This document shows positions 14,240-35,515 of a DNA stretch of 64,000 bases, piece by piece. The notes beneath the pieces were generated by a model. The model ran no database searches. It saw nothing but the letters and a program-made list of their open reading frames with translations, and was not told the DNA's origin. How positions within the stretch are numbered: the stretch's first letter is position 1; every line of letters begins with the position of its first letter. Source of the stretch: Gammaproteobacteria bacterium (GTDB taxonomy: Bacteria > Pseudomonadota > Gammaproteobacteria > Burkholderiales > Rhodocyclaceae); assembly GCA_018824085.1 (NCBI GenBank), contig JAHJHI010000037.1, positions 62,001 to 126,000 on the forward strand. The letters run 5' to 3'. The translations under genes were made by a program, and so were the position numbers.

Positions 14240-14333
14240 CGGATTCCCCGCGAGGCTGCGGTCCTGCGGCATGCGCCCGTCGCCGTGCCCGCACCGCAGC
14301 GCTTGTTTCCCCTCTTTCGGAACAAGGAATCGG

Positions 14334-16927: not shown

Positions 16928-16943
16928 TGGTATGGAATATGCA
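16928..16943 (+). promoter_or_regulatory. Sigma-54-type promoter of the stand-alone CNMP gene
   Basis: TGGTATGGAATATGCA aligns with TGGCACG-N4-TTGCW, keeping the GG (16929-16930) and GC (16941-16942) exactly 10 bases apart. It lies 34 bp before the ATG at 16977, with the NtrC-type activator gene ending 112 bp upstream. An in-frame ATG at 16932 falls inside this element, which supports the later translation start. Confidence 0.65.
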
Positions 16944-16976
16944 TTACTCCTGATGCTTATCCACAGAGAGAACCGC

Positions 16977-17583: not shown

Positions 17584-17599
17584 CACGGCGTACGCCGTG
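17584..17599. repeat. Perfect 16-bp palindrome upstream of the TSUP gene
   Basis: CACGGCGTACGCCGTG is fully self-complementary and lies 17 bp before the TSUP start codon. It could be an operator or an RNA hairpin at the translation start; the sequence alone does not decide. Confidence 0.45.
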
Positions 17600-17616
17600 T
17601 GCGCACGGGAGCCGGT

Positions 17617-19553: not shown

Positions 19554-19596
19554 CGTGAAGTCCTGTCGTTCGATGTCGCGGGTTGTCGAGGCGCGC

Positions 19597-20328
19597 CTAC
19601 CAGCTGGCGGCGTCGTCGAGGGCGGGGCTGCTTGCGTCGGGCTTGGGCTGGAGGCCGTCGACCTTGCGCGGGTTGTCGGTACGCATGATCTGGTCCGGGC
19701 GTATGGAAATTTCCGTCTTGCGCCGCGGCAGGTAGTGGTTCGCCGGCTGTGTCGCCCACTCGGGCATCAGCTGGTAGCCGCCGCGTTCGCGGATGGCGGT
19801 CGACACGACCGATTCGGGGTCGTGCACGTCGCCGAACAGGCGCGCGCTGGTCGGGCAGGCCAGCACGCAGGCGGGCTTGCGGTCACGCTCGGGAAGGTCC
19901 TCGTTGTAGATGCGATCGACGCACAGCGTGCATTTCGTCATCTCCTTGCGTTCCATGTCGAGCTCGCGCGCGCCGTAAGGACAGGCCCAGGAGCAGTACT
20001 TGCAGCCGATGCATTTGTCGTAGTCGACGAGCACGATGCCGTCTTCTTCCCGCTTGTAGCTGGCGCCCGTCGGGCACACCGGCACGCACGGCGGTTCTTC
20101 GCAGTGCAGGCAGGACTTGGGGAAGTGCACCGTCTCGGTGTTCGGGTAGCTCCCGACCTCGAAGGTCTGCACGCGGTTGAAGAAGGTGCCCGTGGGGTCT
20201 TCGTCGTAGGGGCGCAGGTCGGCCAGCGCGCCGGCTGTTCCGGAGGTGTTCCACGACTTGCAACTGGTGACGCAGGCCTGACAGCCCACGCACACGTTGA
20301 GGTCGATCACCAGAGCCATCTGTGTCAT
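19597..20328 (-). CDS. soeB: Iron-sulfur subunit of sulfite dehydrogenase (SoeB-like)
   Basis: 243-residue electron-transfer subunit with four [4Fe-4S] cluster motifs: CVGCQACVTSCK, CLHCEEPPCVPVCP, CIGCKYCSWACPYG and CTLC with CVLACP. The ferredoxin-like fold and lack of a signal peptide match DmsB/SoeB. It shuttles electrons between the molybdenum subunit and the membrane anchor. AAGGAG precedes the ATG at 20328, 57 bp after soeA. The C-terminal 40 residues (with PRKVDGLQPKPD) are variable and probably contact the anchor. Confidence 0.85.
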   Translation of the reverse strand: MTQMALVIDLNVCVGCQACVTSCKSWNTSGTAGALADLRPYDEDPTGTFFNRVQTFEVGSYPNTETVHFPKSCLHCEEPPCVPVCPTGASYKREEDGIVLVDYDKCIGCKYCSWACPYGARELDMERKEMTKCTLCVDRIYNEDLPERDRKPACVLACPTSARLFGDVHDPESVVSTAIRERGGYQLMPEWATQPANHYLPRRKTEISIRPDQIMRTDNPRKVDGLQPKPDASSPALDDAASW

Positions 20329-20385
20329 TGCTGATCTCCTTGTGAGCCGCCGCGACGGCGGCGGTCTTGTTCCTGATGCGGGCGC

Positions 20386-23295
20386 CTAGCCGCGCTTCTT
20401 CCATTTGCCGACGAAGTAGGCCTGCACGTTCTTGCGCACGGAGTTCGTGCCCGGCAGGGACTTCATCGCGGGGAACTGCGGCCAGGTCTCCTTCGCCTCG
20501 TCGTCGCCCGCCTTGTAGATGCGCACATGGACGTCGTACCAGCCGGCCTGGCCGGTCACGGGGTCAGAGTTGGAAATGTGGCCGCTGCCGCCCTGCATCG
20601 GCAGCTCTTCCGAAATCAGGTGGTTGAGCAGGAAGCCGCGACGCGATTCGTTCGCGGTCGGCCCCAGGTTCCAGGCACCGCTGGCCTTGCCGATCGCGTT
20701 CCACGTCCACACCGTGCCGACCTCGACCGCTTCGCTGAAGCGGCACATGCAGCGCACCTTGCCCCACGTCGATTCGACCCAGATCCAGTCGCCGTCGGCG
20801 ATGTCCTGCGCGCGCGCGGTCACCGGGTTCACGTGCAGGTAGTTGTGCGAGTGGATCTGCCGCAGCCACGCGTTCTGCGAATCCCAGGAGTGGTACATCG
20901 CCATCGGACGCTGCGTCACCGCGTTCAGCGGATAGCGCGTGAGGTCCGTGCACTGCGACTCCAGCGGCGGGTAGTAGAAGGGCAGCGGGTCGAAGTACTT
21001 CTCGACGCGGTCGCGCAGTTCGGGCGGCGGCTGCCGTCCCGGACGCTTGCCCTGCGCGGCAAGGCGGAAGCGCTGCAGCACGTCGGAGTAGAGATGGATC
21101 AGGATGGGGTCGGCGTCGCGGCGCATGCGCACGCGCTGCGCCCAGTCCATGTAGCCCTTGTTCCAGTTGCGCATGTACTGGTAGGACGCCGGCAGCACGT
21201 AGTGGAAGACGCAGTTGTTCTTCGCGTACATCTCCCACTGGCGCGGATTCGGCTCGCCGCGGATGGATTTCTTGCCGTCGGCGCCGCGCCAGCCGGCCAG
21301 GAAGCCGATGCCGGAGCCGGGCTCGGTTTCGTAATTCACGATGAAGTCCGGGTAGTCGCGGAACTTGCGCGTGCCGTCCGGCCGCGTGAAGGCCGGCAGG
21401 CGCAGCCGGCTGCCCAGTTCGATCAGCACTTCCTGGAAGGGCTTGCAGTTGCCCTTGGGTTCGACGACCGGCACGCGGACCGAATCCATCGGGCCGTCGA
21501 ATTCGGAGATCGGACGGTCCAGGATGGACATGACGTCGTGCCGTTCCAGATACGTGGTGTCGGGCAGGATGAGGTCGGCAAATGCCGTCATTTCCGACTG
21601 GAAGGCGTCGCACACGACGATGAACGGGATCTTGTAGTTGCCGTCCTCGTTCTTGTCGTTGAGCATGTTGCGCACTTCGCTGGTGTTCATGCTGGAATTC
21701 CAGGCCATGTTCGCCATGAAGATGAGCAGCGTGTCGATCGGGTACGGGTCACCGCGCCAGGCGTTGGTGATGACGTTGTGCATCAGGCCGTGCGCCGACA
21801 GCGGGTGCTCCCACGAGAAGGCCTTGTCGATGCGCAAGGGCTTGCCGTCCTCGTCGATGCACAGGTCCTGCGGATCGGCCGGGAAGCCGAGCGGCATGCC
21901 GTCGAGCGGCGTGTCCGGCTTGACCGCGTGCGGCCCCTTGGGCGGCTTGGCGATCGGCGGAATGGCGCGCGGGAAGGGCGCCTTGTGGCGGAAGCCGCCC
22001 GGCCGGTCTATGGTGCCGAGCAGGCTCATCAGGATGGCCAGCGCGCGTATCGTATGGAAGCCGTTGGAGTGGGCCGCGAGACCGCGCATCGCATGGAAGG
22101 ACACCGGATTGCCGGTGACTTCGTCGTGCTCGACGCCCCAGCTGTCGGTCCACGAGATCGGCAGGTGGATCTTCTGGTCGCGCGCGGTGACGCCCATTTC
22201 GTGGGCCAGTCGACGTATCGTGTCCGCCGGTACGCCGCAGATGCCTTCGGCCCATTCGGGCGTGTGCTCCTTCAGGCGCTCGAGCAGCAGCTGGAAGGCC
22301 GGCTTGACCGGCGTGCCGTCGGGCAGCGCGTAGCTGCCGCGCAGGCGCGGGTCGGCGCCGGGCGTGTGCGTCGGCACGAGCCGGTCGCTCAGGCGGTCCC
22401 ACCAGTACTTGTTGTGCGGGTAGTCCGCATTGATCTTGTCGCCTTCCGGGTCCATGGCGAACAGGCCGAAGTCGTCCGCATCCGGGTCCTGCTTCACGAG
22501 CTGCCCGGCATTGGTGTAGCGGGCGAGGAATTCGCGGTCGTACAGGCCGCGCGCGATGAGCTCGTGACACAGCGCGAGCAGCAGCGCACCGTCGGTGCCC
22601 GGCTTGATCGGCACCCACTCGTCGGCGATCGCCGAATAGCCGGTGCGCACCGGGTTGATCGACACGAAGCGTCCGCCGTTGCGCTTGAACTTGGACAGTT
22701 CGATCTTCAGCGGATTGGAGTGGTGGTCCTCCGCCGTGCCGATCATGATGAACAGCTTGGAGCGTTCCAGATCCGGGCCGCCGAATTCCCAGAATGAGCC
22801 GCCTATCGTGTAGATCATGCCGGCGGCCATGTTCACGGAACAGAAGCCGCCGTGCGCGGCGTAGTTGGGCGTGCCGAACTGCTTGGCGAACATGCCGGTC
22901 AGCGCCTGCATCTGGTCGCGGCCGGTAAACAGCGCGAACTTCTTCGGATCCGTTTCGCGCAGCGTCCGCAGCCGGTCGCCCAGCAGCGTGAATACCTCTT
23001 CCCAGCTGATTTCCTCATAGTCGCCGGCGCCGCGTTCGGTGCCGGCCTTGCGGATCAGCGGCTGCGTCAGGCGGGCCGGAGACTGCTGCTTCATGACGCC
23101 CGAAGCACCCTTGGCACAGATCACGCCCTGGTTCAGCGGGTGATCGGGGTTGCCGTCGATGTAGCGGATTTCACCGTTGCGCATGTGCACGCGGATGCCG
23201 CAGCGACAGGCGCACATGTAGCAGGTGGTCTTCTTGACGTCGAGTTCGCCGACGGGCTCGGCGTACGGATTGGAAAGACGACTGGGGGTGGTCAT
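20386..23295 (-). CDS. soeA: Molybdopterin catalytic subunit of sulfite dehydrogenase (SoeA-like)
   Basis: 969-residue DMSO-reductase-family oxidoreductase. An N-terminal [4Fe-4S] motif (CYMCACRCG, then VICAKGAS) is followed by the molybdopterin domains. A likely molybdenum-ligand Cys occurs in HGGFCSVNMAAG near residue 150, and the C-terminal dinucleotide-binding domain (from about residue 800) contains SHNYLHVNPVTAR. There is no twin-arginine signal, so the enzyme should be cytoplasmic as in SoeABC and unlike DmsA or PhsA. Length and overall style fit SoeA, which oxidises sulfite to sulfate in the cytoplasm. Neighbouring TSUP and SulP transporters and an oxygenase operon support this. GGAG precedes the ATG. 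Confidence 0.8.
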   Translation of the reverse strand: MTTPSRLSNPYAEPVGELDVKKTTCYMCACRCGIRVHMRNGEIRYIDGNPDHPLNQGVICAKGASGVMKQQSPARLTQPLIRKAGTERGAGDYEEISWEEVFTLLGDRLRTLRETDPKKFALFTGRDQMQALTGMFAKQFGTPNYAAHGGFCSVNMAAGMIYTIGGSFWEFGGPDLERSKLFIMIGTAEDHHSNPLKIELSKFKRNGGRFVSINPVRTGYSAIADEWVPIKPGTDGALLLALCHELIARGLYDREFLARYTNAGQLVKQDPDADDFGLFAMDPEGDKINADYPHNKYWWDRLSDRLVPTHTPGADPRLRGSYALPDGTPVKPAFQLLLERLKEHTPEWAEGICGVPADTIRRLAHEMGVTARDQKIHLPISWTDSWGVEHDEVTGNPVSFHAMRGLAAHSNGFHTIRALAILMSLLGTIDRPGGFRHKAPFPRAIPPIAKPPKGPHAVKPDTPLDGMPLGFPADPQDLCIDEDGKPLRIDKAFSWEHPLSAHGLMHNVITNAWRGDPYPIDTLLIFMANMAWNSSMNTSEVRNMLNDKNEDGNYKIPFIVVCDAFQSEMTAFADLILPDTTYLERHDVMSILDRPISEFDGPMDSVRVPVVEPKGNCKPFQEVLIELGSRLRLPAFTRPDGTRKFRDYPDFIVNYETEPGSGIGFLAGWRGADGKKSIRGEPNPRQWEMYAKNNCVFHYVLPASYQYMRNWNKGYMDWAQRVRMRRDADPILIHLYSDVLQRFRLAAQGKRPGRQPPPELRDRVEKYFDPLPFYYPPLESQCTDLTRYPLNAVTQRPMAMYHSWDSQNAWLRQIHSHNYLHVNPVTARAQDIADGDWIWVESTWGKVRCMCRFSEAVEVGTVWTWNAIGKASGAWNLGPTANESRRGFLLNHLISEELPMQGGSGHISNSDPVTGQAGWYDVHVRIYKAGDDEAKETWPQFPAMKSLPGTNSVRKNVQAYFVGKWKKRG

Positions 23296-23367: not shown

Positions 23368-25149
23368 TCAGCGCGGACGGCCATCGGGCAGACGCTCGCG
23401 GCATTGTTCGAAGATGCGTGTCGGGCAGTGCGCGCAGACGTCGGAGTCGAAGCGCGGATAGAGCTCGCCGATCACGTCCTGGCCGATCGAGAACAGGTTC
23501 TCGCGGCCGATGTCCCGCATGTGGCCGGCGTCATCCAGCGTCTGCACGGCCTGTTCGTTCAGGCGATGGAAGTAGAGGCCGCCATTGCGCGCGCGCCGCC
23601 GCCGGGCTTCGTCGGCCAGCAGCTCCGCGCCCGATGCGTCGATGTAGTTCATGCCGGGGGCGAGCAGCAGCAGGTGCTTCTGTGCCGGATTCATCACCTC
23701 CAGTTGATGGAAGTGGCGCTTGACGTGGTCGATCGCGCCGAAATAGACATCGCCGTCGATGAAGGCCATCTTCAGCTGGCAGCAATCCGGCTCGTCGTGC
23801 TGCGGCACGAAGTGGTACTGGCCGGGCCCCGGCGCCGGCACCGCCGGACGTATCGTCGGGCGCGACGTGCGCTCCAGATACAGGATCAGCGAGAGGATGA
23901 CGCCGGAATATATGGCGAATTCGAGCTGGAACACCAGCGTCGATATCAGCGTGGCGAACAGCACCGCGCTCTCGCGCCGGCTGCTGCGCAGCGTCGCGGC
24001 GATGTGCCTGAAGTCGATCAGCGAGAAGGCGACCATGAACAGGATGGCCGCCATGGATGCGATCGGCAGATAACGCGCGAGCGGTACGAAGAACAGCAGC
24101 GTGAGGATCAGGAAGAACGCCGAGAACACCGACGCGAGCGGCGTCACCGCGCCGGCTTCGTAGTTGATCCCGCTGCGGGTGAACGAGCCGCTCGACACAT
24201 AGGCGGAGAAGAAGCTGCCCACGACGTTGGCCAGCCCCTGCCCGAAGAACTCCTGGTTTCCGTCGATGTGCTGGCCCGACTTCGCGCCGACGGCGCGTGC
24301 GATCGACAGCGCCTCGGTCAGCGACAGCAGCGTCACGGCGAGTGCGATCGCGCCGAGCTGGCGCAGCACGTCGGCCGAGAACATCGGCATCGACAGCGGA
24401 GGAAGGCTGCGCGGAATCTCGGACACGGTGGTGATGCCGCCGTCGTGTCCGAGCGCGCTCTGCACGCCGAGCGCGTAGAGGCTGCCGACGACCATGGCAA
24501 TGATCATGTAGGGCAGGCGACGCGCGTAGCGCCGCGTCAGGATGCCGGCCGCGAGCGTCACGGCGCCGACGCCGGCGACATGCCAGTTGATGTCGCCCGC
24601 CGTCCGCGCGAAGTTGGCGAGGGCCGGATAGAACTCGCCGCCGGAGGAGTAGTCCAGGCCGAAGAAGTTCTTCAGCTGACTGGTCGCGATCAGCACCGCA
24701 GCGCCGGCCGTGAAGCCGATGACGACGCTGTGCGATATGAAGTTCACCAGCATGCCGAGGCGCGCGAACGCCAGCCCGAGCTGGATCACGCCGACCATGA
24801 AGGTGAGCGTCAGCACATAGGCGATGTAGGTCTGGCTGCCCGGTTCGGCCAGCGGGCTGATGGTCGAGAACACGACGATGGACAGCGCCGCGGTCGGCCC
24901 CGACACCAGATGCAGCGACGAGCCGAACAGCGCCGCGATGATGACCGGCGCGATGGCGGCGTACAGGCCATATGCCGCAGGCATTCCAGCGATGGTCGCG
25001 TACGCAACGGCCTGCGGCAGCAGGATGACCGTTCCCGTGAACCCTGCGATGGCGTCCTTGCGCAGTGAGTATCGTCCGACCAGCGGCCACCAGCGGCGCA
25101 TGGGCAGCAGCGATACGGCGCGGCGCCTGGCTGTCGAGGAAGTCTTCAA
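23368..25149 (-). CDS. SulP/SLC26-family sulfate transporter with STAS domain
   Basis: 593-residue anion transporter. Its 10-12 membrane helices span residues about 35-430 and include the SulP signature region near GLYAAIAPVIIAALFGSS. A cytoplasmic STAS domain follows (residues about 455-560, with LAPGMNYIDASGAELL). The end has a Cys cluster, CAHCPTRIFEQC. The frame begins at TTG 25149 with GGGACGGGAC upstream; ATG 25101 is an alternative without a clear ribosome-binding site. As first gene of the soe operon it probably moves sulfate across the inner membrane, though SulP members also carry bicarbonate and other anions. Confidence 0.83.
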   Translation of the reverse strand: MKTSSTARRRAVSLLPMRRWWPLVGRYSLRKDAIAGFTGTVILLPQAVAYATIAGMPAAYGLYAAIAPVIIAALFGSSLHLVSGPTAALSIVVFSTISPLAEPGSQTYIAYVLTLTFMVGVIQLGLAFARLGMLVNFISHSVVIGFTAGAAVLIATSQLKNFFGLDYSSGGEFYPALANFARTAGDINWHVAGVGAVTLAAGILTRRYARRLPYMIIAMVVGSLYALGVQSALGHDGGITTVSEIPRSLPPLSMPMFSADVLRQLGAIALAVTLLSLTEALSIARAVGAKSGQHIDGNQEFFGQGLANVVGSFFSAYVSSGSFTRSGINYEAGAVTPLASVFSAFFLILTLLFFVPLARYLPIASMAAILFMVAFSLIDFRHIAATLRSSRRESAVLFATLISTLVFQLEFAIYSGVILSLILYLERTSRPTIRPAVPAPGPGQYHFVPQHDEPDCCQLKMAFIDGDVYFGAIDHVKRHFHQLEVMNPAQKHLLLLAPGMNYIDASGAELLADEARRRRARNGGLYFHRLNEQAVQTLDDAGHMRDIGRENLFSIGQDVIGELYPRFDSDVCAHCPTRIFEQCRERLPDGRPR

Positions 25150-25222
25150 GCGTCCCGTCCCGATTGGTTGTCTTGGTTGGCGGGCAGCGACCGGATGGCG
25201 CTCCCGAGGTGGGAGCCGTCAC

Positions 25223-25237
25223 GCAAGTTCGGTGCCA
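25223..25237 (-). promoter_or_regulatory. Sigma-54-type promoter for sulP-soeABC
   Basis: Read on the minus strand the sequence is TGGCACCGAACTTGC, differing from TGGCACG-N4-TTGC at only one position, with GG and GC 10 bases apart. The expected transcript would start near 25212, about 63 nt before the TTG of sulP. This is the best sigma-54 match in the window. Confidence 0.72.
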
Positions 25238-25541: not shown

Positions 25542-25560
25542 TCAGGCACGGCTTCTGCTA
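25542..25560 (+). promoter_or_regulatory. Sigma-54-type promoter for the oxygenase operon
   Basis: The sequence AGGCACGGCTTCTGCT keeps GGCACG and TGC with GG (25545-25546) and GC (25557-25558) 10 bases apart. Predicted transcription would start near 25570, leaving an 85-nt leader before the ATG at 25655. Confidence 0.62.
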
Positions 25561-25654: not shown

Positions 25655-26860
25655 ATGTCCCGTAATGCAGTGCAGTGGAAGCAGAAGCCGAATTTCCCCG
25701 AATCGCACTACGTCGACACGCGGATCTATACCGAGGAGGACATCTTCCTCGATGAGCAGCGCAAGATCTTCAACAAGTGCTGGATCATCGCGTGCCACGA
25801 ATCGGAAATACCGACTGCATATGACTACCGTACCTTCAGCCATCCGGGTGGCCCGCCGCTGATCGTCATCCGCGGCGAGGACATGAAGGTGCGCACCTTC
25901 TACAACATCTGTCCGCATCGCGGCAACACGCTGCTGTACGAACCGGTCGGCAACGCCAAGCGGATCACCTGCATCTTCCACGCGTGGTCCTTCAACTCGA
26001 CCGGCGACTGCGTCGACATCTCGCGCGGCAAGGAAGGCTACCAGGACCGCTTCGCATGCAAGGACGCAGGTCTGCGGGAAGTGAAGGCGGAAGTCGGCTT
26101 CGGCGGATTCGTCTGGGTGAATGTGGATGACGACGCCGGCACGCTGGCGGACTACATCGGTGACGCGATGGGGCTGCTCGGCGGCCATCTTGACGAGCCG
26201 CTGGAGGTGTTCCACTACCACAAGGCCATCGTCGATACGAACTACAAGCTGTGGCACGACACGAACAGCGAGTTCTATCACGACTACATGCACTACTTCA
26301 ATCGCATCACCGGGATGATCCAGCCGGGCTATTTCGACCGCAAGTACACGGGCTATCCGAATGGCCACGCGTCGGTCGGCTCGATGGCGATCAAGTACGA
26401 CGCCTACGAAGGCAGCAAGGCGCGCGGCGTGGGCTGGCCCGGCCTGGCACCGGGTGGCTGGGTGCTCATCGACATCTTCCCGGGCATGACCTACAACCTG
26501 CGCACCTCCGTGCTGCGCATGGACACGGCCATTCCGCTCGGCCCGAACAAGCTGCTGATCGAGTTCCGCGGCCTCGGCCTGAAGAGCGACACGCCGGAGC
26601 AGCGCGCCGAGCGCATCCGCGACCACAACCAGATCTGGGGACCGTTCGGCCGCAACCTGCACGAAGACCTGCTGGGCGTGCATGGCCAGGGCCTGGCGAT
26701 GCGCGAGCGCACCGACAGCAAGTGGGTCATCCACGGACGCGAAGAGAACATGACCATCCACGACGAGGGCGGCATGCGCCACTTCTATGCCGAGTGGAGC
26801 CGGCGCATGGGGCGCGACGCATTCAACCCCTATGGCGAACAGACCGAAGCGGCGAAGTAA
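25655..26860 (+). CDS. Rieske non-heme iron oxygenase, alpha (catalytic) subunit
   Basis: 401-residue ring-hydroxylating-type oxygenase. The Rieske motif CPH-X17-CIFH lies at residues about 86-109. The mononuclear iron site is NYKLWHDTNSEFYHDYMH, where the usual DXXH-X4-H is EXXH-X3-H, a notable variation. The later Asp ligand is probably in LHEDLLGVHGQG. AAGGA lies 6 nt before ATG 25655; an upstream TTG is weaker. With the beta subunit, reductase, ferredoxin, a TauT-type importer and sulfite-handling genes around it, an organosulfonate mono- or dioxygenase releasing sulfite is the best hypothesis. Length and gene set recall methanesulfonate monooxygenase, but that enzyme is reported to have a longer Rieske spacing. 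Confidence 0.82.
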   Translation: MSRNAVQWKQKPNFPESHYVDTRIYTEEDIFLDEQRKIFNKCWIIACHESEIPTAYDYRTFSHPGGPPLIVIRGEDMKVRTFYNICPHRGNTLLYEPVGNAKRITCIFHAWSFNSTGDCVDISRGKEGYQDRFACKDAGLREVKAEVGFGGFVWVNVDDDAGTLADYIGDAMGLLGGHLDEPLEVFHYHKAIVDTNYKLWHDTNSEFYHDYMHYFNRITGMIQPGYFDRKYTGYPNGHASVGSMAIKYDAYEGSKARGVGWPGLAPGGWVLIDIFPGMTYNLRTSVLRMDTAIPLGPNKLLIEFRGLGLKSDTPEQRAERIRDHNQIWGPFGRNLHEDLLGVHGQGLAMRERTDSKWVIHGREENMTIHDEGGMRHFYAEWSRRMGRDAFNPYGEQTEAAK

Positions 26861-26901
26861 GCGCTCCGTTCAACCCAGAATTCTCAAAAGACGAGGTTAG
26901 C

Positions 26902-27363
26902 GTGGATACAAGAACTGCCATCACCGAACTCATCCATCGATCGGGTCTGATCATGGACGACGTGAATTTCAAGGGTTATCTCGACCTGTGCGCGCCGGAT
27001 TACCAGTACCGGATTTCCGCCTACAGCCCGGAAATCCGCAAGGACATGACCTGGCTCGAACATGACCGCGCAGGCATGAAATCGCTGTTCGACAACCTGC
27101 ACAAGCACAACAGCGACAAGTCGCCGATCACGCGCCACATCAGCGTGTGCACGGTGGCGATCGACGAGCAGGCGAAGACCGCCGATGTCGTGAGCACGCT
27201 GCAGGTGTTCCGCACGACGCTGGATGGCGGCCAGACCGAGCTGTTCGCCGTGGGCCGGATGCTCGACACGGTCGCCCTCGGCGACGACGGGCCACTGCTC
27301 AAGGCGCGCAACGTCCGGCTTGATACGCGGATGCTGGGGTTTGGCTACCACATTCCGTTCTGA
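26902..27363 (+). CDS. Rieske oxygenase beta subunit (SnoaL/NTF2-like)
   Basis: 153-residue cone-fold protein typical of small subunits of ring-hydroxylating oxygenases, contributing to the alpha3beta3 assembly without cofactors. Features include an N-terminal helix (AITELIHRSGLIMDDVNFKG), the central RHISVCTVAI strand and the C-terminal KARNVRLDTRML. The start is GTG 26902 with GAGG at about 7 nt. It lies 41 bp after the alpha gene and 21 bp before the reductase gene. Confidence 0.82.
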   Translation: MDTRTAITELIHRSGLIMDDVNFKGYLDLCAPDYQYRISAYSPEIRKDMTWLEHDRAGMKSLFDNLHKHNSDKSPITRHISVCTVAIDEQAKTADVVSTLQVFRTTLDGGQTELFAVGRMLDTVALGDDGPLLKARNVRLDTRMLGFGYHIPF

Positions 27364-27384: not shown

Positions 27385-28431
27385 ATGAAGATCCAGGTCA
27401 ACGCACGAAATCGAACGCATCTGTTTGAGACGGAGGCGGGCGCGGGCGAGAAGATTCTGCACGCGGGGTTGATGCGGGGCATCGCATTGCCCTACGAGTG
27501 TGCGAGCGGCACCTGCGGCACCTGCAAGGCGCGCCTGGTATCGGGAGACATTTCCGATGCCTGGCCGGATGCGCCGGGCCGCAAGTACCTCAAGGCAGCA
27601 GGCGAGTTCCTGATGTGCCAGTGCAGCGCGACGACCGACGTCGTGGCCGAAGTGCCCGCCTTTGTCCAGCTGATGGAAACGGGCTCCTGTGTGCCGCTGG
27701 CAAGCAAGGGCTGCATCGTGGCGACGCAGATGCTGACGCACGACGTGATGACGCTGGACATCGAGTCGGCGGAAGCGATCGACTTCGACGCCGGGCAATT
27801 CATGCTCGTCGGGGTGTCCGAAGTCGAGGGCATGCGCGGCTGGTCGATGGTGAATTTCGACCGCCATGCGCGCCTGCTGCGCTTCCTCGTCCGGCGCAAG
27901 CCGGGCGGTGTGCTGTCCGACTGGCTGTTCGCGGACGGATCGCGCACCGGCGCCGGCGTGGATCTGTACGGACCGCTCGGCCACGCGACGTTCTATCCCA
28001 GTCTCGGCAAGGACCTGCTGTGCATCGCCGGCGGCAGCGGCATCGCGGGAATGATGTCCATCCTCGCCCGGGCCGAACAGGACAACTACTTCGAACGCCA
28101 TGACGGCAACGTGTTCTTCGGCGTGCGTTCGATGAAGGATGTCTATTTTCTCGACGAGTTCACGCGCCTGCGCGCGCAGTGCGGAAACCGGCTGGCGGTG
28201 ACCGTGGCGCTCAGCGACGAGGACCCGCCTGACGGGCTGGATGACGAATATCCGCTGATCCGCTTCGAGCGCGGCTTCGTGCATGAGGTGGCCGCCCGGC
28301 AGATGCAGCAGAAGCTCGCGAACGTGATGGCCTATCTGGCGGGGCCACCGCCCGCGGTCGATGCGTCGATACGCATGTTGCTGCTGTCCAGGGTCACCGC
28401 GGACAACATCCGATACGACAAATTCAGCTAG
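27385..28431 (+). CDS. NAD(P)H:ferredoxin oxidoreductase, 2Fe-2S plus FAD type
   Basis: 348-residue reductase feeding electrons to the oxygenase. An N-terminal plant-type [2Fe-2S] ferredoxin (residues about 1-90; CASGTCGTC and a distal Cys in MCQC) precedes an FAD domain (the RXYS motif is RGWS in this protein) and an NAD-binding domain (IAGGSGIAGMMSIL). The C terminus lacks the usual CGPP-type nucleotide motif (LAGPPPAVDASIR instead). It sits between the beta subunit and the Rieske ferredoxin, 10 bp from the latter, as expected for a three-component system. Confidence 0.86.
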   Translation: MKIQVNARNRTHLFETEAGAGEKILHAGLMRGIALPYECASGTCGTCKARLVSGDISDAWPDAPGRKYLKAAGEFLMCQCSATTDVVAEVPAFVQLMETGSCVPLASKGCIVATQMLTHDVMTLDIESAEAIDFDAGQFMLVGVSEVEGMRGWSMVNFDRHARLLRFLVRRKPGGVLSDWLFADGSRTGAGVDLYGPLGHATFYPSLGKDLLCIAGGSGIAGMMSILARAEQDNYFERHDGNVFFGVRSMKDVYFLDEFTRLRAQCGNRLAVTVALSDEDPPDGLDDEYPLIRFERGFVHEVAARQMQQKLANVMAYLAGPPPAVDASIRMLLLSRVTADNIRYDKFS

Positions 28432-28441: not shown

Positions 28442-29167
28442 ATGCAAAAAGAACGAATCTGCAGCGCCACGGACATCCCGGACAACGGGATGAAGACCTA
28501 CGAAATCAAGGGCGTGAAAGTGCTGGTGGCCAACGCCGGCGAGTGCTTCTACGCCTACCAGGGGCTGTGTCCGCATCAGGACGTGTGTCTGGACGAGGGC
28601 TATTTCGATGGTTCGGTGCTCACCTGCCACCAGCATCTGTGGCAGTGGGACATCCGCACCGGCGAGGCGATGGGTCTGGCCGAGGCGCCGCTCGAAAAAT
28701 ACGAGGTGGAGGTCAGTGACGGCGAACTGTTCGTCGTGCAGTCGAGCGCGCTGAAGGCGGTCGAGATGCTGAAGGACGTGTCTGCGGCGACGCTGTCGCG
28801 TCTGGAGCAACTCGCCAAGCGCGAGGAGTACGACGAAGGCGCGGTGGTCTATGAGGTCAACGATCCGACGGATGACCTCTACGTGCTGGAGTCGGGACGC
28901 GTCGAATTCACGATCGGTCGTGAGGACCGTACGCGCCTGGCGGGTTTCATGCTGCGCAAGGGCGAGGTCTTTGGCTGGGCGGCGTTGCTCGAACAGTCGC
29001 CGCGCCGGATCGCGAAGGCGATCTGCCACGAGAAGTCGGTGCTGCTGCGCATAGATGGCGGCGCGATGCTGGAAGTGCTCGAGGCCGACCCCGCGTCCGG
29101 CCTGGTGGTGATGAGGCGTCTGTCCGAGCTCATCGCGCGCCACATGTCCGGGCCGCAGAACGGCTGA
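28442..29167 (+). CDS. Rieske ferredoxin fused to a cyclic-nucleotide-binding-like domain
   Basis: 241 residues in two domains. Residues 1-100 are a Rieske ferredoxin like TmoC, with ligands Cys43, His45, Cys62 and His65 in CPHQDVCL and LTCHQHLWQWD. Residues about 108-225 are a CRP-like beta-roll (DDLYVLESGRVEFTIG, GEVFGWAALLEQSPRRIAKA), followed by a helix and no DNA-binding domain. The FGWAAL core (177-182) is shared with the stand-alone protein and the permease fusion. No stop or frameshift separates the halves, so this is a true fusion. It probably carries electrons from the reductase to the oxygenase and may be switched by a ligand. Confidence 0.85.
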   Translation: MQKERICSATDIPDNGMKTYEIKGVKVLVANAGECFYAYQGLCPHQDVCLDEGYFDGSVLTCHQHLWQWDIRTGEAMGLAEAPLEKYEVEVSDGELFVVQSSALKAVEMLKDVSAATLSRLEQLAKREEYDEGAVVYEVNDPTDDLYVLESGRVEFTIGREDRTRLAGFMLRKGEVFGWAALLEQSPRRIAKAICHEKSVLLRIDGGAMLEVLEADPASGLVVMRRLSELIARHMSGPQNG

Positions 29168-29277: not shown

Positions 29278-30420
29278 ATGAAAGTCCTTACGAACCGGGT
29301 CAGCAGGGTACTGAAGACGGTTGCCACGACAGTGACGCTGGTGGTCGCAAGTGTTGGCAGCGCGAGTGCGGGAGATCTCGATTTTGGCAAGGCGGGGGAA
29401 CCCGTGAAGCTGGTGGTCGGCTATCAGCCGTACTACACCGAAGCGTGGTCGGGCGTGGTCATGCGCGGCAAGAAGTTCTACGAGAAGTATCTGCCGAAGG
29501 GCTCCAGCGTCGAGTTCGCCGTCGGCCTGCAGGGTGCCGTCATCGTCAATGCGATGCTGGCCGGCAAGCAGCACATCGGCTACGTCGGCGACATGCCGGG
29601 CATCGTGTCGACGACCAAGCAGCAGGTGGCCGACATCCGCATCGTCGGCGCGCTGGGTCTGGGCAAGGACCAGTGCAACATCTTCCTGACCCGCAAGGAC
29701 GCACCGGCGTTCGCTTCCCCCAAAGAGGCGCTGAAGTGGCTCAACGGCAAGAACGTCGCGGTGCCCAAGGGCAGCTGTACCGACCGCTTCGCACAGGAGG
29801 TGTTCAAGAAGGAGAACATCACGCCGGGTGCCTACCTGAACCAGAACATCGAGGTGATCACCAGCGGTCTTCGCGCCGGCAAGCTCGATGCAGCGGTGGT
29901 GTGGGAACCGACCGCATCGCGGCTGGTGCTGGAGGGCCTGGCGAAGCGGGTTGCATCCGGTGCGTCCGTGGATGAAAACGACGGCAGCCTGCTGACGATG
30001 CGCGCCGATCTCATCAAGCAGCGCCCGGACATCGTGAAGGCCTGGCTGAATGCCGAACTCGATGCGCAGCTCTATCTGGCAGACCCGAAGAACTCGCTGG
30101 AGATCGCCCGCATGGCGGTCGAACAGACCACGGGTTTCACGGAACAGGTGCTGTGGTCGTCGATGTTCCTCGAATATCCGGCCAGCGAAGGCGGCATCAA
30201 GGAGCGGCTGTTGCTGCCCTTCACCATCACGCCGGACGTCGAGCAGCTGATCAGCACCTCGGCAACCTTCCTTCACAGCATCAAGAGCATCCACGTGCCC
30301 AAGCTTCGTCCTGAAGCAGTGATGCCCGAGTTCACTCAGGAAGTACTCAAGGAACGCGGACTGACGGCCCCGATCGGTGCCGTGCAGGCTCTGCCTGCGT
30401 CCGAATACAAAGGCAAGTAA
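29278..30420 (+). CDS. ABC transporter substrate-binding protein (NitT/TauT-like)
   Basis: 380-residue periplasmic protein with a Sec signal peptide ending near ASASAG (residue about 31). The fold and motifs (VVGYQPYYTEAWSGVV, GYVGDMPGIVST, DAAVVWEPTASRL) match the nitrate/sulfonate/taurine-binding family. AGGAGG precedes ATG 29278. It is the first of five transporter genes and is followed by a GC-rich stem-loop, a common way to raise binding protein expression over the membrane parts. The long C-terminal extension after residue 300 is unusual. Ligand unknown; a sulfonate is inferred from context. Confidence 0.85.
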   Translation: MKVLTNRVSRVLKTVATTVTLVVASVGSASAGDLDFGKAGEPVKLVVGYQPYYTEAWSGVVMRGKKFYEKYLPKGSSVEFAVGLQGAVIVNAMLAGKQHIGYVGDMPGIVSTTKQQVADIRIVGALGLGKDQCNIFLTRKDAPAFASPKEALKWLNGKNVAVPKGSCTDRFAQEVFKKENITPGAYLNQNIEVITSGLRAGKLDAAVVWEPTASRLVLEGLAKRVASGASVDENDGSLLTMRADLIKQRPDIVKAWLNAELDAQLYLADPKNSLEIARMAVEQTTGFTEQVLWSSMFLEYPASEGGIKERLLLPFTITPDVEQLISTSATFLHSIKSIHVPKLRPEAVMPEFTQEVLKERGLTAPIGAVQALPASEYKGK

Positions 30421-30540: not shown

Positions 30541-31890
30541 ATGGAACAAGTCGAGCAGCTACTCAAGCGGACCTTGCCATTCCAGGTGGTTTCGCCCGAG
30601 ACACTGGGCAACATCGCGGGGATATCGCAGCGCGAAACCTTCAGCGAAGGTGATGTCATCTATTCGGCCGGCCAGTCGGCGAATGATGTGTATGTACTGG
30701 CGTCGGGGCGTTTGCATCACGCGATCACCCCGCAGGTCAACGCCAAGATCCACGAGAAGTCGTTGAACGCGGGCGACGTGTTCGGCTGGGCCGCCATTTT
30801 CGAAGGAGAGCGGATTCGCCTCGCGGACGTGTCCTGCACGGAGCCGGTGGAGGTGCTGCGGATCGACGGCACGAAACTGCTGGATCTGCTGCGCCGCGAC
30901 CGCAATTTCGGCGACGCGGCGATGCGCAGCTTTTCCCAGTTGATCAGCCAGCAGTACTACCTGCCGCCGTCGGTGGCCAATCGCGTACCGAGCACGCTTG
31001 CCGCGCCGGCCACGACCGCGGAGGAGCCGGGCGAGCCGGCGGCCCAGATGGCGTCGACCTGGACGCTGACGATGTACCGGGCGGGTGAATGGATCAGAAG
31101 TCCCGATCCGTACCTGATGATGATCGGCTTCATGCTGCTGCTGGGCTCCTGGTATCTGACGGTCGAGGTGTTCAAGCTGCCGCGCTTCGAGGATCTGCCC
31201 GGACTGACGACGGTCGTCACCGAGTGGTTCGCGACCGATCCGATGTACGGCTTGTCGATCCACACCTCGGAGTATTACCAGCACGTCTGGGTGAGCATCC
31301 GTCGCGTTGCGATCGCCTTCCTGCTGGCGACGGCGCTCGGTGTGCCGCTGGGGCTGTTTCTCGGCTGGTCCAGGACCTTCCGCGAATACGTGTTCCCGGT
31401 GTTCGAGCTGCTGCGCCCGATCCCGATCCTGGCCTGGGTGCCGCTCGCCATCATCATGTTCACGGGCAGCGAGACGCCGGTCATCTTCCTGACTTTCCTG
31501 GCGTCCTTCTTCGCGACCGCGCTGAACACGATGCTGGGCGTCGAGTCGATCGACGAGTCCTATACGCGTGCCGCCTACTGTCTGGGTGCGAACCGCTGGC
31601 AGGTGTTCCGCGAAGTCATCATTCCGGGCGCGATGCCGTACGTGTTCACCGGTCTGCAGATTTCGGTCGGCGTCGCCTGGTTCTCGCTGGTCGCGGGTGA
31701 AATGGTGTCCGGCCAGTACGGCCTGGGCTACGTGATCAACACGTCCTACACGATGGTCCGCTACCCGACCATCATCATCGGCATGGTCACGCTTGGGATC
31801 GTCGGTTACGCGACGAGTGCGATGGTGCGAGTCGCCGGCAACTACATGATGCAGTGGCGCCTGCGCGAGATGGCTCTGGGAGGCCGGTAA
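30541..31890 (+). CDS. ABC permease with N-terminal cyclic-nucleotide-binding-like domain
   Basis: 449 residues. Residues about 10-138 form a CRP-like domain (NDVYVLASGRLHHAI, AGDVFGWAAIFEGERIRLADV; FGWAAI at 81-86), residues 140-175 form a Pro/Ala linker, and from about 190 there are six or seven membrane helices of a BPD/TauC-type permease. The EAA-like loop reads AAYCLGANRWQVFREVIIPGAMP. The cytoplasmic sensor is thus tethered to the translocation pore. GAGGG precedes ATG 30541 and the stop overlaps the ATPase start (TAATG). ABC regulation through such an N-terminal domain is not something I know from described importers. Confidence 0.87.
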   Translation: MEQVEQLLKRTLPFQVVSPETLGNIAGISQRETFSEGDVIYSAGQSANDVYVLASGRLHHAITPQVNAKIHEKSLNAGDVFGWAAIFEGERIRLADVSCTEPVEVLRIDGTKLLDLLRRDRNFGDAAMRSFSQLISQQYYLPPSVANRVPSTLAAPATTAEEPGEPAAQMASTWTLTMYRAGEWIRSPDPYLMMIGFMLLLGSWYLTVEVFKLPRFEDLPGLTTVVTEWFATDPMYGLSIHTSEYYQHVWVSIRRVAIAFLLATALGVPLGLFLGWSRTFREYVFPVFELLRPIPILAWVPLAIIMFTGSETPVIFLTFLASFFATALNTMLGVESIDESYTRAAYCLGANRWQVFREVIIPGAMPYVFTGLQISVGVAWFSLVAGEMVSGQYGLGYVINTSYTMVRYPTIIIGMVTLGIVGYATSAMVRVAGNYMMQWRLREMALGGR

Positions 31891-32753
31891 TGAATGCAAT
31901 GCTAGAGAAGGTGAAGCCTCGCACCAACGAGGCGCGCTACGGCGCAATCCGGATCGACGACGTGGTCAAGATCTACGATCCGGAAGGGGCTGCGGTCATG
32001 GCGGTGGATCACTGCACGCTGGACATCAAGGCCGGAGAGATCTGCATGATCGTCGGGCCGTCCGGCTGCGGGAAGACGTCGCTGCTGAACGCGATTGCCG
32101 GTTTCCATGACATCACGTCGGGGTCCATCCACATGGACGGCGAGATGCTGTGCGGCCCCGGCAAGCCGAAGGCCGAACCGGGCGCGGACCGCATCGTCGT
32201 GTTCCAGAACGGAGCGCTGTTCCCGTGGAAGACCAATCTGGAGAACGTCGCATTCGGCCCGATGATGGCGGGCAAGCTCAGCAAGAAGGAGATCCACGAG
32301 AAGGCCCGCGCAATGATGGCGGACGCGGGCCTGAGCGGGACCGAGCACAACTATCCGGGCGAGGTGTCGTCCGGCTTGCGGCGCCGGGTGGAGATCGTGC
32401 GGGCGCTGATGAACGACCCCAAGGTGCTGCTGTTCGACGAGCCGTATCGCGCGCTCGACTCGCTGACCCGCTCGGTCATGCACGAGTCGCTGCTCGAGAT
32501 CTACTACAAGAACAAGGTCACGATCTTCTTCATCACGCACGATCTGGAAGAAGCCATTTTCCTCGGCCACAAGCTGGTGATCATGACGTCTCGGCCGTGT
32601 CGCCCGAAGAAGATTCTCGAGGTCGACATCCCGCATCCGCGCGACTACAGCGTATTGACCAGTCCGCGCTTCCGCGAACTGCTCGAAGAGACTTCCGAGG
32701 TTGTTCACGAAGAAGCGCGCAAGTCCTTTGCTGCAGGCGAGAAGGAAGGTTGA
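31890..32753 (+). CDS. ABC transporter ATPase 1 (non-canonical signature motif)
   Basis: 287-residue nucleotide-binding subunit of the TauB/SsuB type. Walker A is GPSGCGKTS (56-64), the Q-loop is VVFQNGALFPW, Walker B is VLLFDEP (Glu184) and switch His217 is present in FITHDLEEA. The signature is VSSGLRRR (159-166) instead of LSGGMQQR, so its contribution to the partner's ATP site is degenerate. It starts by overlapping the permease stop and is followed 3 bp later by the second permease. See ATPase 2 for the complementary defect. Confidence 0.88.
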   Translation: MNAMLEKVKPRTNEARYGAIRIDDVVKIYDPEGAAVMAVDHCTLDIKAGEICMIVGPSGCGKTSLLNAIAGFHDITSGSIHMDGEMLCGPGKPKAEPGADRIVVFQNGALFPWKTNLENVAFGPMMAGKLSKKEIHEKARAMMADAGLSGTEHNYPGEVSSGLRRRVEIVRALMNDPKVLLFDEPYRALDSLTRSVMHESLLEIYYKNKVTIFFITHDLEEAIFLGHKLVIMTSRPCRPKKILEVDIPHPRDYSVLTSPRFRELLEETSEVVHEEARKSFAAGEKEG

Positions 32754-32756: not shown

Positions 32757-33590
32757 ATGGCCATGAACCGGATAACCAAGATCAAACGCTCGATCTTCAG
32801 CCGCAGCAGCTTGCGGGCGATCATCGCCATCATCGTGTTCCTGGTGCTGTGGGAATGCGGATCCCGTTCGAAGGAGTGGCTCGGTCACTCGCTGCCCTGG
32901 ATCGGACTGGTGCCGCCGCCTTCAGCGGTGGTGCTGGTCTGGATGGACCTGCTCGGTGACAGCGGCTATTGGGAGAGCTGGTATCTGAGCACCATGCGGG
33001 TCATGAGCGGCTTCGTGGCCGCGATGATCATCGGCATTCCGCTGGGCCTGATGATGGCGGTCAGCCGGACCTTCAATTCGATCACGTTCCCGACGTTTGA
33101 AATCCTGCGCCCGATTCCGCCGCTTGCCTGGGTGCCCGTGGCCATCATCTTCTGGCCGACCGAAGAGCTGTCGATTGCGTTCGTGACCTTCCTCGGTGCG
33201 TTCTTCACGGTCGTGATCAATGTGCTCGGTGGCGCCAAGGCGATCGACATGCGCTTCTACCAGTCGGCGCAGGCGATGGGCTCGTCGCAGTGGGACATCT
33301 TCCGGCGGGTCGTGCTGCCGGCCACCATACCGTCGATCGTCGTCGGGTCGTCGGTCGGCATGGGCATCACGTGGAACGTCGTCGTGGCGGCCGAGATGAT
33401 TTCCGGCGGTGGCGGGGGTACCAGCGGTACCGGCGGCGGTCTCGGCTTCTTCATCTGGAACTCGTACGTTGGCGGCTCCTACGAGCAGATCGTCGTCGGC
33501 ATGATCAGCATCGGTATCGCGGGCTACGCCAGCAGCGAGCTGCTGCGTGGCATCGGCGGCTTCTTCACACCGTGGTTGAAGACTAGGTAA
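32757..33590 (+). CDS. ABC transporter permease 2 (TauC/SsuC-like)
   Basis: 277-residue membrane protein with about six helices and the EAA-type loop SAQAMGSSQWDIFRRVVLPATIP. It lacks the sensor domain of the first permease but aligns with its transmembrane half, so the importer probably has a heterodimeric channel. An unusual Gly/Thr-rich stretch (SGGGGGTSGTGGG) lies near residue 220 between membrane segments. Start ATG 32757 has GAAGG upstream. Confidence 0.86.
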   Translation: MAMNRITKIKRSIFSRSSLRAIIAIIVFLVLWECGSRSKEWLGHSLPWIGLVPPPSAVVLVWMDLLGDSGYWESWYLSTMRVMSGFVAAMIIGIPLGLMMAVSRTFNSITFPTFEILRPIPPLAWVPVAIIFWPTEELSIAFVTFLGAFFTVVINVLGGAKAIDMRFYQSAQAMGSSQWDIFRRVVLPATIPSIVVGSSVGMGITWNVVVAAEMISGGGGGTSGTGGGLGFFIWNSYVGGSYEQIVVGMISIGIAGYASSELLRGIGGFFTPWLKTR

Positions 33591-33599
33591 GGAGTGAAC

Positions 33600-34496
33600 A
33601 TGGCAATCGCATCAGGCGGCGCGGCAGCGCCAGTCACCAGCAAGCTCCAGGTCAGTGCCGGCGAGATCATTGTCGACAACGTCAGCAAGTCCTACGGCAC
33701 GGGCATCTTCGAGAAGAAGGTCGTGAAGGGGTGTTCATTCACGATCGAGCGCAACAAGCTCACCGTGATGATCGGCCCGTCGGGCTGCGGCAAGAGCACG
33801 CTGATCAAGCTGCTCGCGGGTTTCGAGAAACCGACCACGGGCAACATCCTGCTCAACGGCAAGCCGGTCACCGGTCCCGGCCGGGATCGTCTGGTGGTGT
33901 TCCAGGAGTCGGCACTGTTCCCGTGGATGACCACCTACGACAACATCATGTACGGGCCCATCGCCCGCGGCGAGGCGGATCAGAAGGCGCGTGACCTTGC
34001 CGAGTTCCTGCTCGACAAGGTGGGGCTGCGCGACTTCCGCTCGAAGTATCCGACGCAGTTGTCGGGCGGCATGCAGCGCCGTGCGGAACTGGCGAGAGCG
34101 ATGATCAACAACCCGGAAGTGATGATTCTCGACGAGCCGTTCCGCGGCCTGGACGCCATGTCCAAGGAGCTGATGTGGGAGTACTACTCGGCGCTGTTCG
34201 AGGAGTCGCACCGTACCAACTTCTTCGTCACGACCGACATCGACGAGGCGCTCTTCCTCGCCGACCGGCTGATCATCATGAGCAACATCCCGACCCGTGT
34301 CAGGGCGACGATCGAGGTGAACATTCCTCGTCCCCGCAAGCTCGCCGACTTCTTCACCAGCGAGCGCGCCAACGAAGTGAAGATGACCGCGCTGTCACTG
34401 CTGCATGAGGAGGCGATGAAGTCCTTCTCCGGCGGCAGCAAGGCGGCAGCCGACTTCGTGGATTCATACGCCAGGAGATCCGAACAGAAAGCATGA
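33600..34496 (+). CDS. ABC transporter ATPase 2 (switch histidine replaced)
   Basis: 298-residue TauB-type ATPase. Walker A is GPSGCGKST (59-67), the canonical signature LSGGMQRR is at 154-161 and Walker B is VMILDEP. The switch loop reads FVTTDIDEA, with Thr212 where His is normally required. Together with ATPase 1 this segregates the defects into one of the two composite ATP sites. GGAG at 5 nt selects ATG 33600 over GTG 33594. It closes the transporter gene block. Confidence 0.88.
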   Translation: MAIASGGAAAPVTSKLQVSAGEIIVDNVSKSYGTGIFEKKVVKGCSFTIERNKLTVMIGPSGCGKSTLIKLLAGFEKPTTGNILLNGKPVTGPGRDRLVVFQESALFPWMTTYDNIMYGPIARGEADQKARDLAEFLLDKVGLRDFRSKYPTQLSGGMQRRAELARAMINNPEVMILDEPFRGLDAMSKELMWEYYSALFEESHRTNFFVTTDIDEALFLADRLIIMSNIPTRVRATIEVNIPRPRKLADFFTSERANEVKMTALSLLHEEAMKSFSGGSKAAADFVDSYARRSEQKA

Positions 34497-34666: not shown

Positions 34667-35515
34667 ATGGCTCAGAAAATAATCGATATGCGCAGCAGGC
34701 CCTCGTTCCTGCATGACTTCTACGGTGCGACACCGGGGACGAACGAGTTCGAGGTCGTCAAGTGGCTGAACCGCAGGGTCGGCGCGAAGGACGAAATGCA
34801 TTTCACGAAATCCGGCGACGTGAAGGCCTTCGTCAAGGAAGTGGAGGCGGCGGGCATTTCGTCCGCCGTCGTGGTCGGGCGCGACACGCCGGGGATCAAG
34901 CACTCGAACGACGACATCAAGAAGCTCGTGTCGGCGAGCAAGACGCTGGTCGGCATCGGCTCGGTCGACCCGCACGCCAGTGGCGTGAAGGCGGCCACCG
35001 ACGAGATCGAACGCGCCGTGAAGACGCTCGGCCTGAAGGGCATCAACATCGAGCCGGGCTTCTGCAATCCGGCCGTGGCCGCGGACGACGCGCAGCTGTA
35101 TCCGGTCTATGAAGCCTGCCAGGCGCTCGGCGTGCCGGTATGCATCATGTCGGGCCCGACGACGCCGCGCTTCGAACTGACCGATCCGGCACCCGTCGGA
35201 CGCGTGGCACGCGCCTTCCCGCAGCTGAAGATCGTCTGCTATCACGGCTTCTATCCGTACGTGAACCAGATGGTGGGCATCGCCTTCCGCTACGACAACG
35301 TGTTCGTCGTGGCCGACATGTACATCTTCATGCCGGGCGGCGGCCTGTACGTCGAAGCGGCCAACGGCTTCATGCAGGACCAGCTGCTGTTCGGCAGTTC
35401 CTACCCGTTCCGTCCCATGGCGCAGTCGGTCGAGGACTACCAGAAGCTCGGTTTCACCGATGCGGTCATCGACAAGGTGATGGGCGGCAACGCAGCCCGC
35501 GTGCTCGGCCTCTGA
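34667..35515 (+). CDS. Amidohydrolase-fold (amidohydrolase 2/ACMSD-like) protein lacking usual metal ligands
   Basis: 282-residue TIM-barrel protein. The strand-1 HXH is replaced by RSR (residues 9-11 in IIDMRSRPSF), and the C-terminal GSDYP motif reads GSSYP, so Asp is absent. A His remains in CYHGFYPYVNQM, and the strand with LKGINIEPGF is typical of the family. It may therefore be a metal-free enzyme or have a rebuilt active site. Its place after the importer suggests it acts on the oxygenase substrate or product. GAAAGG precedes ATG 34667. Confidence 0.78.
   Translation: MAQKIIDMRSRPSFLHDFYGATPGTNEFEVVKWLNRRVGAKDEMHFTKSGDVKAFVKEVEAAGISSAVVVGRDTPGIKHSNDDIKKLVSASKTLVGIGSVDPHASGVKAATDEIERAVKTLGLKGINIEPGFCNPAVAADDAQLYPVYEACQALGVPVCIMSGPTTPRFELTDPAPVGRVARAFPQLKIVCYHGFYPYVNQMVGIAFRYDNVFVVADMYIFMPGGGLYVEAANGFMQDQLLFGSSYPFRPMAQSVEDYQKLGFTDAVIDKVMGGNAARVLGL

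Follow-up and report, generated by a model that had tools for sequence, protein, structure and literature searches.

The gene at positions 30541-31890 of the window (the whole 64,000-nucleotide stretch of DNA analysed here) encodes a CNMP-fold domain followed by a linker and a CmpB/NrtB-like ABC importer permease, and CNMP modules of the same subtype recur on a Rieske ferredoxin of the same operon and as a free-standing protein beside a nearby sigma-54 regulator (Table 1). We posit that the operon serves organosulfonate uptake and oxygenolytic desulfonation, with CNMP modules under one ligand controlling both the permease and the ferredoxin, a model to which we assign a probability of roughly 45%. 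ABC importers with a fused regulatory-type domain are already known; here such a domain is moved to the permease and repeated on an electron carrier, and this operon-wide repetition of one CNMP subtype is more interesting than the permease fusion alone.

Architecture and fold of the fusion permease

Structurally, the open reading frame comprises 449 residues from an ATG start, with a GAGG beginning 8 bases upstream. Pfam places cNMP_binding (PF00027) at residues 32-120 (E 4.8e-14; 52.5 bits against a cut-off of 27.5) and BPD_transp_1 (PF00528) at residues 267-424 (E 1.1e-25, over its cut-off). We built an AF2 model from 7 rows of the window plus L030. Its overall confidence is intermediate (mean pLDDT 59.9): taken in blocks of ten residues, the CNMP part lies mostly at 65-89, residues 64-71 fall below 50 and the linker is at about 30. 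In structure alignments, residues 1-140 matched 3mdp (Z 18.4), the CNMP half matched the CNMP domains of HCN2, PKG and MloK1 (Z about 17-18, many of them ligand-bound entries), and the permease half (about 188-440) matched CmpB/NrtB chains (Z 17-21, 26-29% identity). On the combined evidence of family assignment and modelled fold, the N-terminal domain has the CNMP fold and the remainder is a type I ABC importer permease of the NrtB/TauC family. The proposal in the initial annotation that a CNMP domain sits N-terminally on an ABC importer permease is thus borne out by Pfam, by the AF2 fold matches and by orthologues in several families; its description of a 138-residue domain with a Pro/Ala linker holds in the window's species, but the linkers of orthologues are variable and often neither long nor rich in Pro/Ala. 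By our own reading of a hydropathy scan, about four hydrophobic segments separate the N-terminal domain from the EAA loop, so that the CNMP domain would face the cytoplasm.

Evolutionarily, sequence comparisons indicate that the CNMP part evolves faster than the permease part. Against two same-genus orthologues, dN/dS was 0.21 and 0.25 for the CNMP part (dS near 1) and 0.077 for the permease part; against more distant orthologues, the CNMP part gave 0.83 (L063), 0.18 (L064) and 0.39 (L069), with dS high for L064 and L069, and L074 yielded no estimate. The G321 protein shares 38% identity with that of the window in the CNMP part and 80% in the permease, the CNMP dN/dS estimate there being 0.83.

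Distribution of fused and non-fused permeases

A search for homologues of the same architecture, which had been suggested as a check, recovered the full-length fusion in 13 distinct genomes (the window's included) and a partial one in G085, whose contig ends inside the gene. Among 101 relatives, the fusion was full-length in the window's genome (a 4.28 Mb assembly) and in three same-genus genomes at 82% identity. A draw of 399 genomes from the order held G085 and nine full-length cases, the window's among them and the other eight at 61-65%; a class draw (369 genomes) added G508, of a different order, at 57%; and a phylum draw (398 genomes) held only the window's genome and G321. These draws overlap, the E-value limit was 1e-50 for the 101 relatives and 1e-60 for order, class and phylum, and at most the best 16 candidates per genome (relatives) or the best four (order, class and phylum) were scored; absences are therefore soft, and CNMP domains joined to permeases of other families would escape detection. 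Of the loci that carry a name, the nearest is L030, which belongs to a Methyloversatilis discipulorum MAG, coincides with the G004 locus and is 81% identical across the whole fusion protein.

Two other explanations for the fusion or its distribution were examined and rejected. A sequencing or annotation artefact is ruled out, since the fusion occurs in three same-genus genomes and ten others (G085, partial, being one of the ten). As to plasmid spread, none of 72,556 plasmid records covers 80% of the query in one place; among 40 matches listed from a total of 1505, 39 start no earlier than residue 169 and the remaining one (H14) starts at residue 118, and the CNMP part alone matches two of the records, neither annotated as a permease.

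Non-fused permeases at 50-55% identity, with the match starting after the CNMP part, were found in G403, G407, G062 and G508, and no CNMP domain lay beside or before them in the stretches read; G666 and G855 have similar relatives by their match rows alone. Both forms, fused and non-fused, occur in G403 and G508, and a separate CNMP gene, sought in the non-fused paralogue cluster of G403 (L065) by CNMP queries and by Pfam on seven ORFs, was not found. At the other extreme, the G191 permease carries two tandem CNMP domains ahead of the membrane part (L066, 9008-10933, minus strand, an open frame of 642 codons). The permease of G066 (L047, 1-1050) is 74% identical and CNMP-less, starting directly at the permease with an in-frame stop just upstream (170 bases before the permease were available); this genome is 68% complete and gave no oxygenase match at the cut-off used. 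Thus, the domain is not required to make a permease. Such a natural CNMP-less form, together with the faster evolution of the CNMP part, would suit a captured domain that merely aids folding or membrane insertion of the permease. We consider this quite improbable, however, given that the domain is kept in 14 genomes with an invariant cassette, that its dN/dS is held at 0.21-0.25 within the genus, and that a second fusion, on the ferredoxin, is found in all 14 genomes.

Operon and neighbouring genes

The operon runs in the order Rieske oxygenase alpha, beta, reductase, Rieske ferredoxin, binding protein, CNMP-permease, ATPase, second permease and second ATPase. An amidohydrolase and a GNAT protein close it in part of the orthologous loci, and in G107 and G085 it is broken across contigs.

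Table 1 Features of the operon and its surroundings in the window.
Feature	Position	Strand	Remarks
Histidine kinase	14271..15383	+	
Sigma-54 response regulator	15097..16815	+	ORF start too far upstream; receiver domain begins at residue 108
Free-standing CNMP protein	16932..17435	+	same subtype
TauE/SafE sulfite exporter	17599..18366	+	
Molybdopterin oxidoreductase, FeS subunit, DmsC/NrfD-like anchor	18606..23295	-	presumably SoeABC-like
SulP sulfate permease family protein	23368..25149	-	
Sigma-54 -24/-12-like site	25222..25237	-	upstream of divergent SulP gene; 10/11 letters
Sigma-54 -24/-12-like site	25544..25559	+	upstream of operon; 9/11 letters
Rieske oxygenase alpha subunit	25655..26860	+	C-x-H-x17-C-x2-H; short-spacer MsmA-like
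Oxygenase beta subunit	26890..27363	+	by Pfam
BenC-like NAD(P)H reductase	27385..28431	+	
Rieske [2Fe-2S] ferredoxin with C-terminal CNMP domain	28442..29167	+	same subtype; start inferred, ORF opens at 28361
Periplasmic substrate-binding protein	29278..30420	+	SsuA/TauA (NMT1-like) family
CNMP-permease fusion, ABC importer	30541..31890	+	CNMP 1-138, Pro/Ala linker 139-175, permease 176-449
ABC ATPase 1	31884..32753	+	no extra domain found; degenerate signature SSG; start may be 31890
Second permease	32757..33590	+	no CNMP domain
ABC ATPase 2	33594..34496	+	no extra domain found; H-loop His absent (TTD)
Amidohydrolase_2 protein	34667..35515	+	downstream in part of orthologous loci

In a further draw of 399 genomes from the order, oxygenase alpha at an identity of at least 74% was found in 10 genomes, the same 10 that carry the fusion in the other 399-genome order draw (G085 counted), and at 44-45% in two more; the best four candidates or fewer were scored per genome. 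Four alpha paralogues at 56-62% occur in G107, G151 and G191. No CNMP-fused ferredoxin was seen in the stretches around three of these (G151 C2, G191 C34 and G107 C48), and the fourth, G107 C38, adjoins the CNMP operon itself. Of the 13 loci tested, all but L070 have a sigma-54-like site ahead of oxygenase alpha that agrees in 9 or 10 of 11 letters; for each of these 12, between 0 and 13 of 300 mononucleotide shuffles scored as well. SulP is preceded by such a site in four of five loci tested; window-wide, five such sites were found against 2.4 expected, which is no significant enrichment.

Several apparent reading frames in this region were discarded: those at 20527-22797 and 22852-25068 (both plus strand) have no Pfam family and lie antisense to the SoeA-like and SulP genes, and that at 17413-18372 (minus strand) lies antisense to the real TauE gene. 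A GNAT acetyltransferase gene at 35536-36006 follows the amidohydrolase, as it does in five other loci (L042, L043, L044, L063 and L064).

A probable role in sulfonate use

Functionally, the surrounding genes point to sulfur. The exporter belongs to the TauE/SafE family (PF01925, 135.9 bits against a cut-off of 32.6), and a TauE-like gene lies near the operon in 11 of the 14 fusion genomes in the stretches read (49-80% identical to that of the window in 10 of the 13 others); it was not seen for G191, G004 and G010, where the stretches read may not reach it. SulP and SoeA genes stand beside the operon in six of the 14 (the window, G001, G004, G010, G321 and G085) and were not seen in the stretches read of the other eight. 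The molybdoenzyme, which we take to be SoeABC-like, has the corresponding subunits (MGD, FeS and NrfD/DmsC anchor), with no Soe model among its matches. On plasmids, the two closest oxygenase relatives (H43 and H44, 60% and 54%) adjoin TSUP or TauE genes, the Methylobacterium nodulans plasmid relative also having a molybdopterin oxidoreductase and a cytochrome c nearby. Among the four plasmid stretches read, TauE is not shown in the two more distant ones: H45 (44.5%) carries a putative sulfate exporter and a TRAP system, and H47 (38%) has neither TauE nor an ABC importer among the genes listed. Taken together, the nearby TauE and SulP/SoeABC-like genes, the context of the plasmid relatives and the sigma-54-like sites suggest that the operon carries out sulfonate breakdown by oxidation with sulfite release, and that the imported substrate is probably a sulfonate.

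From an enzymatic perspective, the oxygenase alpha subunit has a Rieske spacer of 17 residues and lacks the MsmA pattern (C-x-H-x26-C-x2-H); the 26-residue spacer is the signature of proven methanesulfonate monooxygenases according to PMC4433239, whose authors regard methanesulfonate oxidation by the short-spacer 'MsmA' of Methyloversatilis universalis and others as unproven. PMC5023235 describes the methanesulfonate-use genes of M. universalis, which may correspond to this operon, as silent under the conditions tested. With this short spacer and the unproven standing of short-spacer MsmA, we name the substrate no more closely than as a probable sulfonate. A non-sulfonate aromatic acid as substrate, with the nearby sulfite genes forming a separate unit, seems unlikely to us: the oxygenase's best profile matches are indeed aromatic acid dioxygenases, and SoeA and SulP adjoin the operon in only six of 14 genomes, but the TauE-like gene accompanies it in 11 of 14, TSUP/TauE genes stand by two plasmid relatives, and the binding protein belongs to the SsuA/TauA family.

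Three sister CNMP modules with a modified cassette

All 14 fusion genomes have a ferredoxin that ends in a CNMP domain of the permease's subtype; ferredoxin genes beside the related plasmid oxygenases are short (318 bases in Paraburkholderia graminis and 369 bases in M. nodulans). The AF2 model of the ferredoxin fusion has a mean pLDDT of 60.9, its Rieske part being too poor for use. As a separate observation, G508 has a second Rieske-like stretch directly upstream of the Rieske-CNMP ferredoxin (L110, 15903-16952, minus strand).

Searched through 319 phylum genomes (E <= 1e-22, with the best 12 candidates or fewer scored per genome), the subtype profile matched no genomes but the window's own and G321, each with three copies (ferredoxin, permease and free-standing) that all lie in the operon locus. 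Of 11 further genomes, ten have the fusion, and a free-standing copy occurs in eight of the ten, G403 and G140 showing none at the search strength used. It shares the operon's contig or, in G085, the contig with the rest of the transporter, the G191 copy being known from the match listing. All three modules are present in 10 of the 12 fusion genomes examined (G004 and G010 lie outside the 12), and the free-standing gene adjoins a sigma-54 response regulator in the window and in seven of eight fusion-genome loci read, the contig ending in G107. G066 has two free-standing GW-type CNMP proteins elsewhere in its genome (L144 and L155), of a broader kind. With sisters on the ferredoxin and free-standing beside a regulator, the shared CNMP module is probably not a permease-only device, a wider pattern that the initial annotation did not describe. 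In a tree of the modules the permease group clusters; the outgroups sit on long branches and the forks that join them are weak, and we therefore make no claim about the order of the fusion events.

Conservation among the modules was read from an alignment and profile of 23 rows (12 permease, nine ferredoxin and two free-standing) and 151 columns. From this set we omitted L043 and L044, as nearly identical to L042; the ferredoxin of L042; both the ferredoxin and the free-standing copy of L071; and the additional tandem domain of L066. The majority of these enter a wider alignment of 27 rows. Nine columns are invariant in the 23 rows, including Gly82, Trp83, Ala84, Ala85, Arg93 and Ala95, all within the segment that profile comparison pairs with the PKG and PKA phosphate-binding cassette. 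That six of nine fall within the 14 columns Gly82-Ala95 has a hypergeometric probability of 1.5e-5, although we picked these columns with the alignment already in view; and since the structure of the cassette is as a rule conserved in CNMP domains, the invariance counts for less than the figure implies. The cassette Glu and Arg of canonical domains bind ribose and phosphate, and the kinase CNMP domains aligned have mostly Gly-Glu and Arg-Ser/Thr here. In our modules the motif is GWAA..R[LI]A, that is, Gly-Trp and Arg-Leu/Ile with the Arg retained, in all 23 rows and likewise throughout the 27 rows of the wider alignment, where the tandem extra domain of L066 reads GWSA.

By sequence, then, the canonical cAMP/cGMP cassette of Gly-Glu and Arg-(Ser/Thr) is absent, and the Trp in place of Glu means that cAMP or cGMP would not be the favoured ligand. 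Classical cAMP/cGMP control of the importer could draw on four class III cyclase-family matches in the window's genome (none of class I), on the retained Arg and on the profile similarity to PKG and PKA domains; we nonetheless regard it as very improbable, because Trp replaces Glu and Leu/Ile replaces the Ser/Thr after Arg in 23 of 23 rows, and Gly-Glu persists in three further CNMP sequences from that genome. Those sequences come from 13 further CNMP matches in the window's genome, of which the profile recovered six loci amounting to five distinct sequences (L115 and L120 overlap and are one sequence), three with Gly-Glu and two with Gly-Leu; the seven unrecovered matches were left out.

The modules might instead serve docking, C-helix pairing between them holding the oxygenase chain at the importer or recruiting a shared partner so that substrate is channelled, with the motif keeping a fold or interface. 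The presence of one subtype on two proteins of a pathway plus a free, adaptor-like copy would fit this, as would the replacement of the cassette Glu by Trp in every copy aligned and the two tandem modules of the G191 permease; most invariant columns, though, lie in the cassette region and none in the C-terminal helix. This pattern of conservation leans towards ligand sensing over docking, which we judge unlikely, if far from implausible.

Proposed mechanism

We posit that an SsuA/TauA-type binding protein and a heteromeric ABC importer, with two permeases and two ATPases, would import an organosulfonate, which the Rieske oxygenase, receiving electrons via the reductase and the Rieske ferredoxin, would cleave to sulfite; the sulfite would be exported by TauE or, where present, oxidised by the SoeABC-like enzyme. 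One CNMP subtype would then sit on both the permease and the ferredoxin, at points where flux would be controlled, and also occur free by the sigma-54 regulator, and these cytoplasmic modules may all bind one small ligand in the modified phosphate-binding cassette, through a Trp/Arg pocket. On binding, the C-terminal helix and the linker would move, so that import is slowed or permitted at the interface between NBD and permease, and electron transfer from the ferredoxin would likewise be slowed or permitted. CNMP gating of transport is, we think, a reasonable proposal, and its effect would be to keep uptake and oxygenation in step with what the cell can handle of toxic products (sulfite and possibly an aldehyde). 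That a single signal, perhaps a sulfur-oxidation intermediate or an adenylated sulfur species, is read by all three modules, such that uptake, the first catabolic step and transcription respond together, is a tentative extension that we rate as more doubtful than the model itself.

Relation to known systems

Among the papers listed in searches of the open-licence PMC literature there was none on a CNMP-ABC permease or a CNMP-Rieske ferredoxin fusion. If the model is correct, this would be, as far as our searches reach, the first ABC importer gated via a permease-borne sensor and the first CNMP-controlled Rieske electron carrier: the control point of an importer would shift from ATPase to permease, and a single catabolic pathway would have the same sensory module duplicated on its transporter and on its electron carrier. 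Through these modules, the ligand of a non-canonical CNMP subtype becomes accessible to experiment, and the fused, tandem-fused and domain-less permeases form a natural comparison set.

Among membrane proteins, MFS-CNMP transporters and the CNMP-gated channels MloK1 and HCN resemble the window's permease in tethering a CNMP domain to a substrate-conducting protein, but neither are ABC systems. MloK1 and HCN have canonical CNMP cassettes, and the channel matches are, by their titles, ligand-bound structure entries. The EAL enzyme Bd1971, which appeared as a profile match, is another bacterial protein in which a CNMP domain is joined to a module that does not bind DNA; it differs in being a soluble enzyme under cAMP control, with cAMP as its ligand. 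CNBD fusions have been described for MFS transporters in PMC10710835.

Metabolically, the msmABCD/msmEFGH methanesulfonate system shares the Rieske oxygenase alpha and beta subunits, ferredoxin, reductase, sulfonate ABC importer and sulfite genes, and differs in the 26-residue Rieske spacer of true MsmA as against 17 in the window's alpha subunit. The gene spans of Filomicrobium MsmC, F and H (378, 888 and 867 bases, from PMC4433239) leave no room for CNMP fusions.

The closest importers in fold and family are of the nitrate/taurine/sulfonate type. MetNI, ModABC (transinhibition) and OpuA have a fused cytoplasmic regulatory domain, as we propose for the window importer; in OpuA, CBS domains are carried on the ATPase. 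For MetNI and ModABC, PMC10710835 locates the regulatory domain on the NBD (MetN and ModC), as opposed to the permease in the window, in agreement with the earlier remark that importer regulatory domains are normally on the ATPase. The nitrate and bicarbonate importers NrtBCD and CmpBCD (8wm8 and 9ua0) share permease fold and family with the window's, and differ in that the window has short ATPases and its CNMP domain on the permease. NrtBCD and CmpBCD themselves carry an extra domain on the ATPase; in CmpC chains of 665-690 residues, residues 440-523 weakly match the window's binding protein (E about 0.001). In the window, the ATPases have 289 and 300 residues, which leaves no space for an added domain of the NrtC/CmpC kind, and family matches are confined to the ATPase core. 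Additionally, the pair is asymmetric, ATPase 1 having SSG for SGG in its signature and ATPase 2 having TTD with no H-loop His, so that one composite ATP site would look canonical and the other degenerate; the asymmetry is kept in the window and in all 12 close loci read (11 fusion-type loci and G066), and the pattern is similar in four non-fused paralogue clusters.
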